Part shown: one piece after another, positions 33,477 to 64,000 of the stretch
Position numbering within the stretch: position 1 is the stretch's first letter
Layout: the number at the start of each line of letters is the position of its first letter
Assembly: GCF_026210795.1 (NCBI RefSeq)
Contig: NC_089434.1
Location: 3,906,001 to 3,970,000, forward strand
Direction of reading: 5' to 3'
Length of the DNA stretch: 64,000 bases
Source: Rhizophagus irregularis
Taxonomy: Eukaryota > Glomeromycota > Glomeromycetes > Glomerales > Glomeraceae
Made by a program: the position numbers and the translations under genes
The notes under the pieces: generated by a model
The model's input: only the letters and a program-made list of their open reading frames with translations
What the model was told of the DNA's origin: nothing
Database searches by the model: none

Positions 33477-33902
33477 TATCATAACTATAAAATAATAAAG
33501 AATACTGCTTAATTATGAAAATTTTTAGAGACATTTATTTCTCGAATGATATTCAAAGAATTGAAAACGATATGAAGTTATTATTTCTAAATTTACAAAA
33601 GAATCCTTGACGTTATATAGTAATATGGGTAATACAAAACACAACACTATCGTTTTCTCTTTATCTAGTGATAATATATATGTGTATCATAACTATAAAA
33701 TAATAAAGAATACTGCTTAATTATGAAAATTTTTAAAGACATTTATATTTCTCGAATGATATTCAAAGAATTGAAAACGATATGAAGTTATTATTTCCAA
33801 ATTTACAAAAGAACCCTTGACGTTATACAGTAATATGGTAATACAAAACACAACACTATCGTTTTCTCTTTATCTAGTGATAATATACTGTATATGTGTA
33901 TA
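33477..33902 (+). repeat. Recent 208-bp tandem duplication
   Basis: Copy 1 (33477-33684) and copy 2 (33685-33902) start with tatcataactataaaataat. They differ by a few substitutions and short insertions, so the duplication is recent. The unit has no open frame. Confidence 0.9.
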
Positions 33903-34484
33903 TAAAATAACCTAAATCTATATATAAAAAAATATCTCGTGTCAATACACTTGTAAATGCACCATATGAATCTCAAAGAACTTTTATCATTAACAATTAA
34001 TAGTTTAAATATCTCATATTCTAATTTTAAGAATCAGAGGTCAAATGTGTTATCTTTGAATAACACGTATAATTTCAAGTTTATTGTATTCTTGATGAAG
34101 ACGCTTGTCTCACAAGTTCTTCAATAACTTTTAAATATTTTAATAATTAATCGACGCGATTCTGCCGTAAAAATTCATGATGATTTTTAATTAAAATATT
34201 AGCATCGGATTTTATATCCGGATTATAAATATTCTCCAAGATATAATTCTGCGAGAAAATCTAGGATAAAGCGAAACGGGATGAATTGAAAGGAAAGAAG
34301 AAGGGTCGTATTATCCTGTATATCATCATGTTATGGACATTTCTAGTTCTAGTTGTAATGTATTTCAGAATAGATAAATTCATGAGCCATGATAAAAAAA
34401 ATTTTTTTTTTTTTATTATAAGTTTCTATCGGATTTTCAATTTCGGAATTTTTATAAACTAGGAAACGGGCCCAGTTTTATTAA
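33903..34484. other. Gene-free stretch
   Basis: Nothing supported on either strand. Confidence 0.5.
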
Positions 34485-42289: not shown

Positions 42290-43723
42290 TTATTCAAATT
42301 CAAATTTTTTAATGATACCCAACTTTTTATATTTTTCAATTATTTTCATATTTTCAATATTTTCCTCATTATTATTATGAATAATAAAGGAAAGTGATTT
42401 TTGTACCTTACGATTTTTCCAACCAATAAAAAAGGATTCCAAATCTTTTGAATCTAATTTTACATAATTACGTAATCTTAATTCATGAAAATTTTTTGGT
42501 GAATACTTAGTAACAGTTTCCAATACTTCATCACATTTTAAATATGTTTTACCACTCCTAATTTTAATACTTTCTAATTGTTGACAACTAATAAAAATTA
42601 TTCTTAATGTTTTTAATTCATTTTTTATAAATCTAGTATAAAGAGATTTCAAATTTGGACAAAATTTAGATATAGCTAAATTTAAAAAATTATTATGTTT
42701 ATCTATATATAATTCTTTTAAATTTTTTCCATTATTCTCTAAAAATTTAATTAAAATTTCAGCTTTTGGACATCCATTAATAAATTTTAAAATTTGTAAT
42801 TTTGTAAAATTAATATTTTGTATTTCTTCAAAATCATCTCTATAATCAAATGATATAATAAGCTCTTGTAAATTTATTAATCCAGAAATAAATGATAAAG
42901 GTTCATAACTTGCCACTCCTTGTACAACTAATTTTGTTATTGTAAGTGAATGACTTGTTAATGAAGGTACAATTACTGAATAATCATCATAATCCTGTAT
43001 TTTTAAAGTTAAAGATTTTAAACTAACTTGTGAAAAAATCAAATCTTGTAACCCATCTGAAACAATTTCTTCAAATGTTATATCTAATGATTGTATATGA
43101 TGACATATTTGAGATAATTGATAAAAAAATTTTGAATGAACATTTGAACCACATGCTAATTCTGAAAGATTTTTTAAACAATCCTTTGCTCCAGAAAAAT
43201 TTATGAAATTTGGAATATTTCTATCATAAAAATCAGAATAATAAGTCAATTTTTTCATAGTAGTTTGTTTCATAAACATTTTTAATATTTCTTGTGCAAT
43301 CATATTATTCTTATTTAATAAAGTATATGTAGTAGATTTTTGATTCTTAAAATACTTTTTGTTATAAAATACATCATCAAGTATTAGATTGATATCAAGA
43401 ATTGAAAGAACTTTACAAAATGATGCATAATTAAACAATGGAGATTTCGAAGTTAAAATTGGAATAGCTCCATTCTTATATAAGAGATCTTTTGATTCTT
43501 TAGGAAGACAATTAATTAAAGTATTAAGGATTTGTGATGATATTCCAAACCTATACGATGGTGATATTTTACGTTTTAAATCCCAAATGTTTCGCCACAA
43601 AACTCTAACAGAAACTTCACACCAAAGACGATTAACTAGTAAGCATGAATATAATGCAGTTTTATTTCCATCTAAATAATTAAAAATTTCGATAAGACAA
43701 TCAGCTGGAAGTTTATTAGGCAT
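42290..43723 (-). CDS. F-box/LRR protein, intact
   Basis: A single-exon gene of 477 codons. The F-box is at residues 1-45 (MPNKLPADCLIEIFNYLDGN, KTALYSCLLVNRLWCEVSVR), the usual Skp1-binding start. A family-specific segment with PLFNYASFCKVLSILDINLI follows, then about 300 residues of irregular leucine-rich repeats (for example LKNLSELACGSNV, LINLQELIISFDY, GKNLKELYIDKH, CPNLKSLYTRFI). F-box proteins choose targets for SCF ubiquitin ligases; the target is unknown. The ATG at 43723 is chosen because the F-box starts there as in relatives. An in-frame ATG at 43843 would add 40 residues translated from a tandem repeat and is unlikely. Relics of the same family lie at 4100-4912, 44240-44340 and 51067-51405. 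Confidence 0.9.
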   Translation of the reverse strand: MPNKLPADCLIEIFNYLDGNKTALYSCLLVNRLWCEVSVRVLWRNIWDLKRKISPSYRFGISSQILNTLINCLPKESKDLLYKNGAIPILTSKSPLFNYASFCKVLSILDINLILDDVFYNKKYFKNQKSTTYTLLNKNNMIAQEILKMFMKQTTMKKLTYYSDFYDRNIPNFINFSGAKDCLKNLSELACGSNVHSKFFYQLSQICHHIQSLDITFEEIVSDGLQDLIFSQVSLKSLTLKIQDYDDYSVIVPSLTSHSLTITKLVVQGVASYEPLSFISGLINLQELIISFDYRDDFEEIQNINFTKLQILKFINGCPKAEILIKFLENNGKNLKELYIDKHNNFLNLAISKFCPNLKSLYTRFIKNELKTLRIIFISCQQLESIKIRSGKTYLKCDEVLETVTKYSPKNFHELRLRNYVKLDSKDLESFFIGWKNRKVQKSLSFIIHNNNEENIENMKIIEKYKKLGIIKKFEFE

Positions 43724-43754
43724 TTTATCTATTATTTTTTTATAACAAAAAGTA

Positions 43755-43835
43755 ATATGATGAAGTTCAACGTTAAAAATGATATGAAGTTCAACGTTAA
43801 AAAAGATATGAAGAAGTTCAACGTTAAAAAGGTGA
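43755..43835 (-). repeat. Three-copy tandem repeat in the F-box gene leader
   Basis: aagttcaacgttaaaaa plus a short spacer occurs three times just upstream of the F-box start. In the open extended frame it encodes FNVEL repeated three times, so it could lengthen the protein if an upstream ATG were used. Confidence 0.75.
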
Positions 43836-44239
43836 ATTTTCAAAAAAATAAAATCGTTGTTACCTTTTTATAGTAAGTTGAGTTTAATCGTGTTACAATA
43901 CCTGTTGTATAACAGATAAAGTAATGTGAAAATTACGCCAATAATTTATACATTTTTGGGGGAATTTGCCGATCATTGATTATTATGAATGTTGTACTAC
44001 AATTCGTGAATCGTGAGTCGATAAATTAAATTTTGTGGACGGTAGCTTAATTCTTTAATCAATCTCATTGATCCAGAAAAGGTATTGGTTTGTTATAAAA
44101 GTGATCTTCGAGTTAGAAATAATTATTTCAAGCTATTAAATAATGATGCACAATCAAATAATTGAATATCAATAAATCCCCCCTTAGAGTACATACCTAT
44201 TTCCAATGATTATAAATGTCTTAAATATTCGTACATGCA

Positions 44240-47316: not shown

Positions 47317-50300
47317 ATGTCAAATCAAGCAACATATTCGGATATTCACAGACAAATTCCTGATGAGCTCATCAAATATTATGATTATTCATACTTTCAA
47401 TATATAAAACAAATAAGTAGTAATGTCGTTCGTGCTACTTGGAAAAACACTGATCGTTTTTTCGCTCTGAAACATATTAATAACGATAAACAAACTTTCG
47501 AACAAATTATTAGAGAGGTAATATATATATATATATATATATATTTTTAGTTATTTTACTTTGATTAGATAAAAATTAAAAAAAAAGAAATTATATTTTT
47601 ATACCGTAGTTAAAATTGTATCGGAGTGTTGATTTTCATGAAAATATTTTACGATTTTACGGTATCACGAATGTAGAAATGGGTAATTTGTATCATTTTG
47701 ATTTATAAATGTATTAAATATATTATTACCTATTCTTACTTTTTATATTTTTATTATTCATTCAGATGTTTATGAAGCAAAAAAATATTCTTTGGTCTTA
47801 GAATATGCTAATAGAGGTACATTGAACACTTATTTAAGTGAATATTTTGATGAACTTGATTGGGATGACAAATATAATTTATCATTGCAACTGGCAAGTG
47901 CCGTGGAATGTATGCATAATTGCGGTGTTATTCATTGTGATCTGGTATATTATTTATTTATTTATTTATTTTTATCTTATTATAATGATTTTAAATCAAT
48001 TAACTATTTATTTTATTTCTACTTTTTTAAATATTATATAGCATCCGAATAATATACTTGTACATAAGAATAATATTAAAGTGGCAGATTTTGGGTTATC
48101 GAAAAGGATTTCTGAAGAATCAATTAACGCACCAAAAATTATTGGCGCAATACCCTATATAGATCCAAAAATTTTTAATAATCGAATTGATTATATTAAT
48201 GAAAATCAAAAATATAAATTCAATGAAAAATCTGATGTATATAGTATAGGAGTTCTTATGTGGCAAATTTCTAGTGGATATCAACCATTTAATACAAAAG
48301 ATTATGATATAGATTTAGCTTTAGGTATAATGAACGGAAAAAGAGAAAAAATCATTCAAGAAACTCCTATCGAATATTCTAATTTATATCAAGGTAATTA
48401 ATAATTTTTAATTATTATGTTAATAATCATGTTTTTTTTATTAAAAAAAAAAAAATATTAATATTTTTCATCATTTATGTGAAAATAGAATGTTGGAAAT
48501 TTGAACCAAGTGAACGTCCAAATATACAAAACATTGTATCTATTTTAAAAAAATTAAATTTTTCAATACAACAAAATCCGGGATCAAATAAAAACATCAT
48601 GAATGATGATTTAATGTTAGAAAAAATTGCGTCAAACCTTAATTTACTCAATTTAATAATTGTTAATGAATCCAAAAGTGGTACTGAAAATAATTCATCA
48701 GATACATTAATTCAATTAACGGAATTATCAACAGATATATTTGATTTAGCATCTAATAAAATCAATAATATAATTATCGATGAGTTTATTGCATATTTAA
48801 TTAAGAAGCATGATAGAGATTTTACTTTTGGAAATATTAAACAACTTATCAATCAACAATTATTAAAATTAAGTCAACCCACGGATAAAATTATAAAGTG
48901 GTTATCAAAAAACCAAGACAAGATACAATATATTTGGTTTCTTGGTTTATTATACTATTTTAATATTGGTATAGAGGAGGATTTTAATTTTAAAGCTTTT
49001 AACTTGTTTTTAAAGGCGGCGAATGAAAATTTTCCAATTGCGCAAGTTTATCTTGCTAAATGTTATTTTGAAGGATATGGAACTGAAATAGATTATAATT
49101 TATCATTTAATTGGTGTAAAAAATCCGTAGAAAATGATAGTATTATTGGAAGGCTTAATTTAGGATATTGTTATAAATTAGGTATTGGAACTGCAATTAA
49201 TAAAAGGAAAGCAATTCAATTATATGAAACAGCAGCTGATCAAGAAAATAGTAACGCGCAAACTAATCTTGGAATTATATATGAAAAAGGTGAAGGAATT
49301 AAAAAGGATTTAAAAGAAGCCATTTATTGGTATAGTAAAGCAGCAGAAAATGGTAACAAAGTTTCACAATATTATTTGGGTAAATGTTTTGAATTAGGGA
49401 ATGGTATTAAAAAAGATTTGGTTAAAGCTTTTGGATATTATAAGATGTCAGCTGATCAAGAATATTTAAACGCTCAATTTCAGCTTGGATATTTTTATTT
49501 TAATGGTATTGGAACTAATATTGATAAAGAAAAGGCATTTAATTTATATAAAATAGCAGCAAAAAAAGGACATAATATAGCACAAAATAATCTTGGATTT
49601 TCATATGAAAATGGTGAAGGAACAATAAAAGATTTGAAAAAAGCTATTTATTGGTATAGCAAAGCAGCAGAAAGTGAATATGAAGTGGCACAATATAATT
49701 TAGGTAATTGTTATAAATTAGGAATTGGTGTAGAAAAAAATGAAGTTAAAGCTTTCGAATGTTTCAAAAAATCAGCTGATAAAAATTATTTGGATGCTCG
49801 ATTTAAATTTGGGTATTGTTATGATGAAGGAATTGGAACAGAAATTAATAAAGAATTAGCATTTGAAATATATAAAGTAGCAGCAGAAAAAGAAAATAGT
49901 AATGCTCAAATGTTTCTTGGTAATTTATGTAAATATGGTCAAGGAACAAAGAAGGATATAAAACAAGCCATATATTGGTATCGAAAAGCAGCAGAAAATG
50001 GAAATAAAATTGCACAATATAATTTAAGTAATTATTGTAAAGGATTTGGGATTGATTTTAATAAAGAAAAAGCTTTTAATCTATATAAAACTATAGTTAA
50101 GAAAGTACATAGTATAGCACAAAAACATCTTGAAAGATTGTATAATAATGGCGAAGGAGATAATTTAAAAGATACATTTTATTGGTATGGAAAGGCAGCA
50201 GAAGGTGGATGTGAAATAGCACAATGTTATTTAGGTAGTTATTATGAATATATTATAAAAAATAAGGTTAAAGCTTTTAATCTTTATAAAAAATCATCAA

Positions 50301-62101: not shown

Positions 62102-62823
62102 TCAAATTTTAAGAATGTACATGGTTAAAGAATATATATAAAATGGGCGTATGTCACGTTCTGTTTCTATTTCATGATCATCATCACAAATCTTTTCAGA
62201 ATTATCCATAATTGTACTATAATCTAATTTGAAAGGCCCAGAAATGCTAAAATCATTGAGTGTATCATCAAATGCTGGTCCTAATTCATCATCAGAAATA
62301 GAAATGACATTAAGGTCTGGTTTAGATCCATTAAATCAATATTTGAAATTTACAAAAATAAAATAATGGTAAATTTCAAAATTAATTACCGGCTTCAGCT
62401 TCATATTCTTGAATCGAAGTATCACATTTAATCACTTGTTTTTTATTACCCCGGATACGATCACCAATTAAAGTAAATGCAAATCAGAAATTGAGAAAAA
62501 ATTGCTAAAATAGAAATTATCACTAATTTTTTTTAAAAAAAAGTCTGAACTCTGAAGACATTACCCACAGTAGTCTTTAGCACTTGGGTTGAACTTACAG
62601 AAGATTCAATTGGTTGATGTATATCACTACTATGATCACGACCACGACCACAACCTCGTCCACGTCTACCGCCATTTTTTTCACGACCTTCTAATTAAAT
62701 TAAAAAGTACTAAATAAAAAAATTATAATCATATTATATTGCAATTTTATATAAAAAATATTTACTTGTGACTTCTGCTTCATTTTGCATGGTAGTTTTT
62801 TGTTCTTTTCGTACTCTTGTCAT
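62102..62823 (-). pseudogene. RG-rich protein gene, frame-broken
   Basis: Exon 1 (62823-62766) reads MTRVRKEQKTTMQNEAEVT. Exon 2 (62690-62565) joins in phase and holds an RG-rich box (GGRRGRGCGRGRD) then HQPIESSVSSTQVLKTTV. A third piece reads FTLIGDRIRGNKKQVIKCDT then SIQEYEAEA, and a last piece reads DLNVISISDDELGPAFDDTL, then a Ser/Asp-rich end, with TGA at 62104-62102. Exon 2 cannot be joined to piece 3 without a stop in any of the three frames, so the gene is probably dead or a splice signal is missed. RG boxes usually bind RNA. I suspect a transposon-associated gene family but cannot name it. Confidence 0.45.
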
Positions 62824-63291
62824 TTTAAAAAAAATAAATAATAATTTAAAAATGTTTTTTTTTATAAAATTGGAAGTACTGTACTAGTTACGAAATTTAA
62901 AAAAATTATTTTTTTATTACTAATTTTATTATCAAGAAACAAAAGTTTATAAAAGTTTATTTTTAAACTTAATATAAGAAAAAGTCTATTATATGTTTAA
63001 GTTTATTTAGGCGAATAATTTAAATTTGAAACTTTAATATATAAAACCCATATATGTTAATAAATAAGCTTCTATATATATATTTTAATAAATAAACTTT
63101 TTTATACTTCTCACGGTTGCAAGTTTTGAAAATATCTAATTAAATTACCCTGACGTAATTGTGGCTAATCACATGATGATCACATTATCTTTAACATTCG
63201 GTCTTCAATAAATTTTTTCCTTAAAAAAAAATGATTGGATGATCAGATTTGATTATCTGATCTTTTTTTTAATTAATTTTTTTTTCTTCAG
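62824..63291. other. Gene-free stretch
   Basis: AT-rich upstream region between the RG-rich gene and the exon-intron array. It contains T-run/A-run tracts and ends in a T-rich tract with an acceptor-like cttcag at 63286-63291. Confidence 0.5.
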
Positions 63292-64000
63292 TTTCTTCAA
63301 GAACAGACCGAACGGGTTCTTTCAGAACGGTGATTTGGACTTCTAAGAATGCAAGAGGTGCGGAAGCTGGAAGGTTAGTATATTTCATTTTTTCTTTTCA
63401 TTTTTTTTTCATTTTTTTTTTGCTTACTTTATTTATTTCTTTAGGAATTGTCTCTTTTGGAACGAATATAAGAGATACGGGAAGGTTAGTATATTTTTTC
63501 GTTATATATATATATTTTTTCTTTTTTTTTATTTTATAATTTTCAGTTTTTTCTTTCTTTTATTTACTTTATTCTTATTTCTTTAGGAACGGTCTCTTCT
63601 TTCGGAATAGCAGTTTCGATGGATTTCTAAGAATGCAAGATAGACGGGAGGTTAGTATATTTTTCGTTTATTTTCATTTTTTTTATTTATTTTTTTCTTT
63701 ACTCACCTTATTTTTATTTCTTTAGGAATGATCTCTTCTTTCGGAATGGCAGTTTCAGTGGATTTCTAAGAATGCAAGATAGACGGGAGGTTAGTATATT
63801 TTTCGTTTATTTTCATTTTTTTTTATTTATTTTTTTCTTTACTCACCTTATTTTTATTTCTTTAGGAACGGTCTCTTCTTTCAGAACAGCAGTTTCAGTG
63901 GATTTCTAAGAATGCAAGATAGACGGGAGGTTAGTATATTTTTCGTTTACTTTCATTTTTTTTATTTATTTTTTTCTTTACTCACTTTATTCTTATTCTT
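63292..64000 (+). repeat. Tandem array of exon-plus-intron units, open at the window edge
   Basis: At least five units. Each has a short GC-richer block preceded by a T-rich tract plus ttag (ttcag in unit 1) and followed by gttagtatat: 63292 (or 63302)-63373, 63445-63484, 63587-63650, 63726-63789 and 63866-63929. The last three blocks are 64 bases each, on a 139-140-bp period, with nearly identical ~75-base T-rich spacers. The array looks like repeated microexons with short introns. Unit 1 reads IWTSKNARGAEAGR, and the 64-base units contain the related QWISKNAR or RWISKNAR in one frame. Since 64 and 40 leave remainder 1, every included block shifts the frame, and simple serial splicing soon meets a stop. 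The array runs off the window. A likeness to tandem-repeat secreted effectors of these fungi (SP7-like) is recalled, not tested. Confidence 0.7.

Follow-up and report, generated by a model that had tools for sequence, protein, structure and literature searches.

Among the closest described counterparts of the locus presented here is Tgm-Express1 of soybean, a CACTA-type element with exons and introns which the spliceosome can use; its fragments are described as deriving from five unrelated host genes, and their splicing has been seen in cDNA (PMC1947982). Other systems share individual features with it. Introners are reported as mobile DNA carrying splice signals (PMC9860276), and the CMITEs of corals as tandem arrays in which families with different ends have an internal region in common (PMC2872659). 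In Rhizophagus irregularis, the genes of SP7-like effectors are described as containing imperfect tandem repeats, as having similar paralogues on different chromosomes and as carrying a conserved intron ahead of the first repeat (PMC11333574), and transposons of the CMC and hAT families are reported to be known and expressed in this species (PMC11075540, PMC8647823). The main text of the introner report names neither Rhizophagus nor Glomeromycotina (PMC9860276). Among the best-matching open-licence papers, none described an array such as the following one by its title or the start of its abstract, and the only match for R. irregularis microexons was a Rhizoctonia genome paper.

The array lies at the right-hand end of a stretch of 64,000 nucleotides (C6:3906001-3970000), hereafter the window, in a genome that was searched over 146.7 Mb and 32 contigs. 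At 63528-63997, a tandem unit of 139 bp is present in 3.4 copies with 91% matches (TRF). Five exon-like blocks are found on the plus strand, each followed by the donor GTTAGTATAT. The first, at 63292-63373 (82 nt), is preceded by the acceptor TCTTCAG, and the remaining four, at 63445-63484 (40 nt, without a minus-strand acceptor), 63587-63650, 63726-63789 and 63866-63929 (64 nt each), are preceded by TCTTTAG. Between them are four intron-like spacers on the same strand, at 63374-63444 (71 nt, 70% T), 63485-63586 (102 nt), 63651-63725 (75 nt) and 63790-63865 (76 nt), with a T content of 68-70%. With an acceptor and a donor at all five blocks, the proposal of the sequence-only reading that each unit brings its own copy of the splice-like signals is borne out; its 64-base block in a unit of about 140 bp is exact for three units, whereas the first two blocks measure 82 and 40 nt.

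The spacers of the window resemble native introns both in length and in their excess of T on the plus strand. In 19 native introns read from Argonaute-type genes elsewhere in the assembly (one of 20 fetched stretches was omitted, and borders were set by eye), the mean length is 76 nt and T exceeds A in all 19. A genome-wide search with the exact pattern TTATTTCTTTAGGAA-N54-64-GTTAGTATAT gives 36 matches, of which 17 are forward and 19 reverse, and the reversed control gives none. Furthermore, tandem arrays in the fetched sequence (unit 80-180, at least two copies, TRF score of at least 120) were scanned under strict motifs for a single unit that combines donor, branch site and acceptor, with 100 dinucleotide shuffles of each array as the null. 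A complete unit is present in 25 of 42 arrays, where the shuffles predict 0.28, in a set that is non-random, since loci were fetched because they hold such arrays. The window's family accounts for 14 of these 25, while two further family arrays (C11, L021) miss, and five lie in loci picked by the palindrome described below; among the other arrays, which were fetched by chance, six of 21 match against 0.07 expected.

The sequence to the right of the window (L005, C6:3969000-3977000, in which the L005 position plus 62999 gives the window position) confirms that the window end cuts the array, which stops soon afterwards with a final half block beginning at L005 1005, the would-be window position 64004. 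A query with the 709 bases of the array yields at least 49 matches in the genome, and a model of the unit gives 101 matches in 17 fetched loci. In 15 of the 17 loci the last of these matches breaks off between positions 47 and 56 of the 121-position model, and in nine (L011-L019) the first consists of the 3' half only; L020 and L021 deviate from the other loci in the pattern of the array ends. The closest four members of the family, on C6, C3, C17 and C22, are on sequence grounds segmental duplicates. The segment at window 61500-63291 matches C3 at 99% and C17 at 96%, and C22 matches its positions 406-1792 at 96%; on the right side of the array the values are 97% for C3 and 94% for C22, and C17 is split by about 20 kb. 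Full units of 64-65 nt number three in C6, seven in C3, seven in C17 and eight in C22, so that, unless the assembly miscounts, array length differs by whole units among the duplicates, in line with the earlier expectation for copy number.

Several other features accompany the array. A putative small gene that includes an RG-rich stretch (window 62160-62824, minus strand) points away from the array and falls in the segment common to C3 and C17. Just right of the window, L005 1858-2414 contains part of a Piwi domain (PF02171, E 4.5e-14 and 6.9e-9) that is divided between two frames, whereas the copies on C3, C17 and C22 have it in one longer frame of 184-203 aa; Piwi matches in the genome number 108. 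Farther inside the window are a frame of 525 aa for an F-box-like protein (42293-43867, minus strand; PF12937, E 6.6e-7) and two tandem repeats found by TRF, one with a 324-bp unit in 2.7 copies (49163-50041) and one with a 210-bp unit in 2-2.4 copies (33477-33980).

The nature of the array is best seen in its copy on C27, to which the window array is 79% identical. This relative (L009 719-1810) is enclosed in an element of 4313 bp (C27:2408985-2413297), whose nearly identical inverted ends, CACTGGTCAAAATCAATRCTATCGGGTA, have TGC on both sides. Inverted ends beginning with CACTR, as in CACTA elements, are found as CACTGGTCAAAATCAATRCTATCGGG at both ends of the C27 element, and related ends are found at a second element, C1b, which is bounded by CACTGGTC ends and flanked left and right by TAC; both elements thus show the 3-bp target duplication of this superfamily. 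The left (85 bp) and right (503 bp) flanks of the C27 element adjoin in two places from which the element is absent, at 4857236-4857320 and 4857318-4857820 of C6 and, on the minus strand, at 2126411-2126495 and 2125912-2126413 of C7; in both places they have a 3-bp overlap and an identity of 100% as rounded. Two empty sites whose flanks are about 100% identical, together with the exact 3-bp overlap, imply that the C27 element was inserted recently with a 3-bp duplication. It is a non-autonomous, CACTA-like element, its longest frame measures 121 aa and has no Pfam match, and the family of its ends is large, with at least 40 scored relatives of the 315-bp left end among 156 candidates. No transposase linked to CACTA-type ends was found in the C27 element or in the one region considered as a candidate autonomous partner (C26:202900-217400), which has two frames above 110 aa. 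The inverted ends there (C26:203148/217185), a third such pair, have no 3-bp duplication, and the right ends are not settled for the copies on C24, C4, C11 and C29. As separate observations, another pair of inverted ends inside C1b (C1:1414500-1436000; L024, L019, L025), of the CACAGGTC type and flanked by CTG at either end, probably marks a nested element, and more arrays of intron-like units are present on the minus strand in the surroundings of the C27 element, but outside it (L026 4837-6383).

The copy in the window occupies 63137-64000 on the plus strand and runs on to the would-be position 64279 (L005 1280). Three stretches, L005 138-197, 198-367 and 978-1280, match the interior of the C27 element (L009) at 86, 82 and 87%. 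Window 40001-64000 and L005 contain no paired CACTGGTC ends (within two mismatches) and no paired CACAGGTC ends, and the window copy has no target duplication of its own; it is most likely an internal fragment of a CACTA-like element without ends. Because the C27 relative lies between CACTG ends, with a 3-bp duplication and empty sites, the array itself is most likely the interior of a transposon, and we consider it probable that it arose by tandem amplification inside a non-autonomous DNA transposon, of which the window holds a fragment lacking the ends.

A similar module is associated with a second group of elements. The palindrome GGAACGTYAYTAACGTTCC, located to the right of the array at C6:3970232, has 129 exact copies in the genome (70 forward and 59 reverse, against none for the reversed control), which among the matches listed often form runs with a spacing of about 110-240 bp. 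The run on C26 sits in an element of 2881 bp (C26:980608-983488) with the ends TAGAGGTRTGC, which we take to be of the hAT type, and the element with the palindrome array on C20 measures 3505 bp. The flanks of the C26 element alone match C24:2754200-2754708 and 2754701-2755211 at 95% identity with an overlap of exactly 8 bp, and an 8-bp target duplication, as in hAT elements, is present at both C26 and C20, with seven of the eight duplicated bases identical at each. By inspection, the inserted elements on C27 and C26 do not look cleanly removable.

A model of the module, built from 30 units of 32 matches from the hAT-like palindrome arrays, was run on nine sequences. Six matches fall in the C27 element (best E 3e-11), five of them on the plus strand of the array; others lie at L005 1164-1251 (E 5e-8) and in L010, L020 and C1b, the five in C1b all being on the minus strand. 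None was obtained in L011, C24, a 14.5-kb control or positions 1-62999 of the window. Related exon-intron modules thus occur in two transposon superfamilies, CACTA-like and hAT-like. Many modules carry a palindrome around a branch-site-like sequence, and 27 of the 30 hAT-like units keep both acceptor and donor. The palindrome arms of these units vary without compensating changes, and therefore no selection on a hairpin is claimed.

The alternative which survives best retains the transposon and regards the array as a plain satellite inside it, in which the splice-like signals, however they arose, no longer have any effect; we give it somewhat less than an even chance. Conservation was assessed in 67 full units of the 64-nt type (34 partial ones among the 101 matches were dropped). 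The AG of the plus-strand acceptor is kept in 66 of these (64 TAG and two CAG, with a YAG shifted by one base in the remaining unit) and the GT of the donor in 65. Before base composition and CpG are controlled for, such conservation of the splice columns is reached in 1 of 100,000 draws, a figure not corrected for relatedness. Variation within the exons amounts to 0.85 bits in CpG-capable columns against 0.35 bits elsewhere; differences are expected to cluster in this way because methylated CpG decays, and CpG methylation has been reported in R. irregularis (PMC8647823). This decay, as in silenced DNA, is consistent with a satellite, and much of the conservation of the splice sites reflects it. 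In the recent quartet, furthermore, variability in the splice columns (0.022 and 0.036) is little below that of the A/T exon columns (0.046). Over all units, however, the splice columns remain less variable than the non-CpG A/T exon columns (0.100 against 0.257; 278 of 100,000 draws, not corrected for relatedness), and in the hAT-like units they vary by 0.16-0.23 against 0.40, both of which argue against a plain satellite. Taken together, the evidence for selection on splicing at present is weak at most.

That the array is, or once was, spliced on the minus strand, with 59-nt exons, GTGAGT-type donors, TACTAAC branch sites and TTCTTAG acceptors, is an unlikely reading, which arises because the donor GTTAGTA is the reverse complement of the branch site TACTAAC. 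The strict scan favours it, with eight of the 14 family matches on the minus strand only (window, C1b, C27, C3, C17, C22, L010 and L017), five on both strands and one on the plus strand only; this outcome is mainly due to the plus-strand ACTCAC, which fails the branch motif used. Likewise, 40 of 54 minus-strand exons have an open frame 0, and the CT of the minus acceptor and the AC of the minus donor are kept in 59 and 64 of the 67 units, respectively. The plus-strand borders are better kept, however (66 and 65 of 67), and 13 of the 67 units contain no minus-strand exon, at least three of them only because the motif omitted GTAAGC. Minus-strand introns would also consist of about 70% A, against the excess of T over A in 19 of 19 native introns. 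In addition, a hand-picked chain of 14 blocks in the C27 element favours the plus strand: AG precedes each block (at one border one base early), GT follows each, and the spacers measure 62-107 nt, except for one of 408. Modules run in the plus direction in C27, L005, L010 and L020 and opposite to the 64-nt array in C1b, and L010 contains an additional array on the other strand. We therefore prefer the plus strand for the array. Coding on the minus strand was rejected, as 59 is 2 mod 3 and the second exon falls in a closed frame in most units, which interrupts the reading frame.

A coding role of the plus strand was rejected as well. In blocks 3-5 of the window, frame 1 is open and frames 0 and 2 are closed; since 64 nt shift the frame, none stays open over two 64-nt blocks in succession. 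Some frame stays open in ten of 53 adjacent block pairs of the 17 loci, chiefly where the lengths differ from 64, and the longest spliced open stretch (18-76 codons) goes beyond its shuffles in none of these loci, with 66-628 of 1000 shuffles reaching the observed value. The open stretch of the C27 chain, 58 codons, compares with a shuffle mean of 63. The WISKNAR motif, which had been taken as a hint of a repeat protein, is immediately followed by TAG in the window blocks, and no frame leads through two successive 64-nt blocks; neither this protein nor the gene with skippable exons that was proposed with it is supported. A host gene with tandem skippable exons encoding a repeat protein is thus highly improbable, for although every unit has an acceptor and a donor and copy number varies between loci, stops close every frame within two 64-nt blocks, open stretches are at chance in 17 loci and relatives of the array lie inside transposons. 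Micro-exon genes are defined by coding micro-exons that keep the frame; here, most blocks have a length of 1 mod 3 and the frames close, and this class was set aside. A structured RNA was also rejected, as an Rfam search of six loci (E up to 1) returned only a sub-threshold match, to MIR1507, whose 21.7 bits fall short of the gathering score of 73.

For the transposon interior, our preferred reading, a sequence of events can be envisaged in which an element captured an exon-intron fragment that gave rise to the module, and in which unequal exchange amplified this module in tandem. The element would have moved with a transposase from elsewhere, and its silenced copies would have lost CpG. Any transcript of the array could be spliced into non-coding RNA, as fragments in Tgm-Express1 are, and no use of the array to the host is indicated. 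In a broader and considerably more speculative proposal, which we regard as possible but doubtful, exon-intron modules with a branch palindrome would be mobile cargo across unrelated superfamilies, tandemly amplified into spliceable non-coding micro-exon arrays and seeding new introns, exons or non-coding RNAs where they land. Transposons with serial donor-branch-acceptor units are direct candidates for a source of new introns and exons, and at least one element is young enough to have empty sites of about 100% identity in the same genome, which makes the splicing of a fresh insertion testable. Such arrays can also mislead gene finding, since they look like a multi-exon gene and are yet non-coding.

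Compared with the systems introduced above, the array resembles the SP7-like genes in its imperfect tandem repeats, its similar copies on different chromosomes and its intron-like sequence. The SP7 repeats, however, are described as coding and hydrophilic and as following a signal peptide (PMC11333574), whereas the array has no coding frame beyond chance, and an SP7-like effector was rejected on the basis of this description. The CMITEs are similar in their shared interior and tandem arrangement, but they are related to piggyBac, their tandem units are the elements themselves, and the abstract mentions no exon-intron architecture (PMC2872659). Tgm-Express1 is comparable as a CACTA-type carrier of exons and introns; in place of fragments of several host genes with splicing seen in cDNA, the R. 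irregularis array consists of one tandemly amplified module, known here from sequence alone. Introners, finally, likewise bring splice signals with them as they move, but they become single introns of genes (PMC9860276), whereas here an exon and an intron are repeated together within a larger element.
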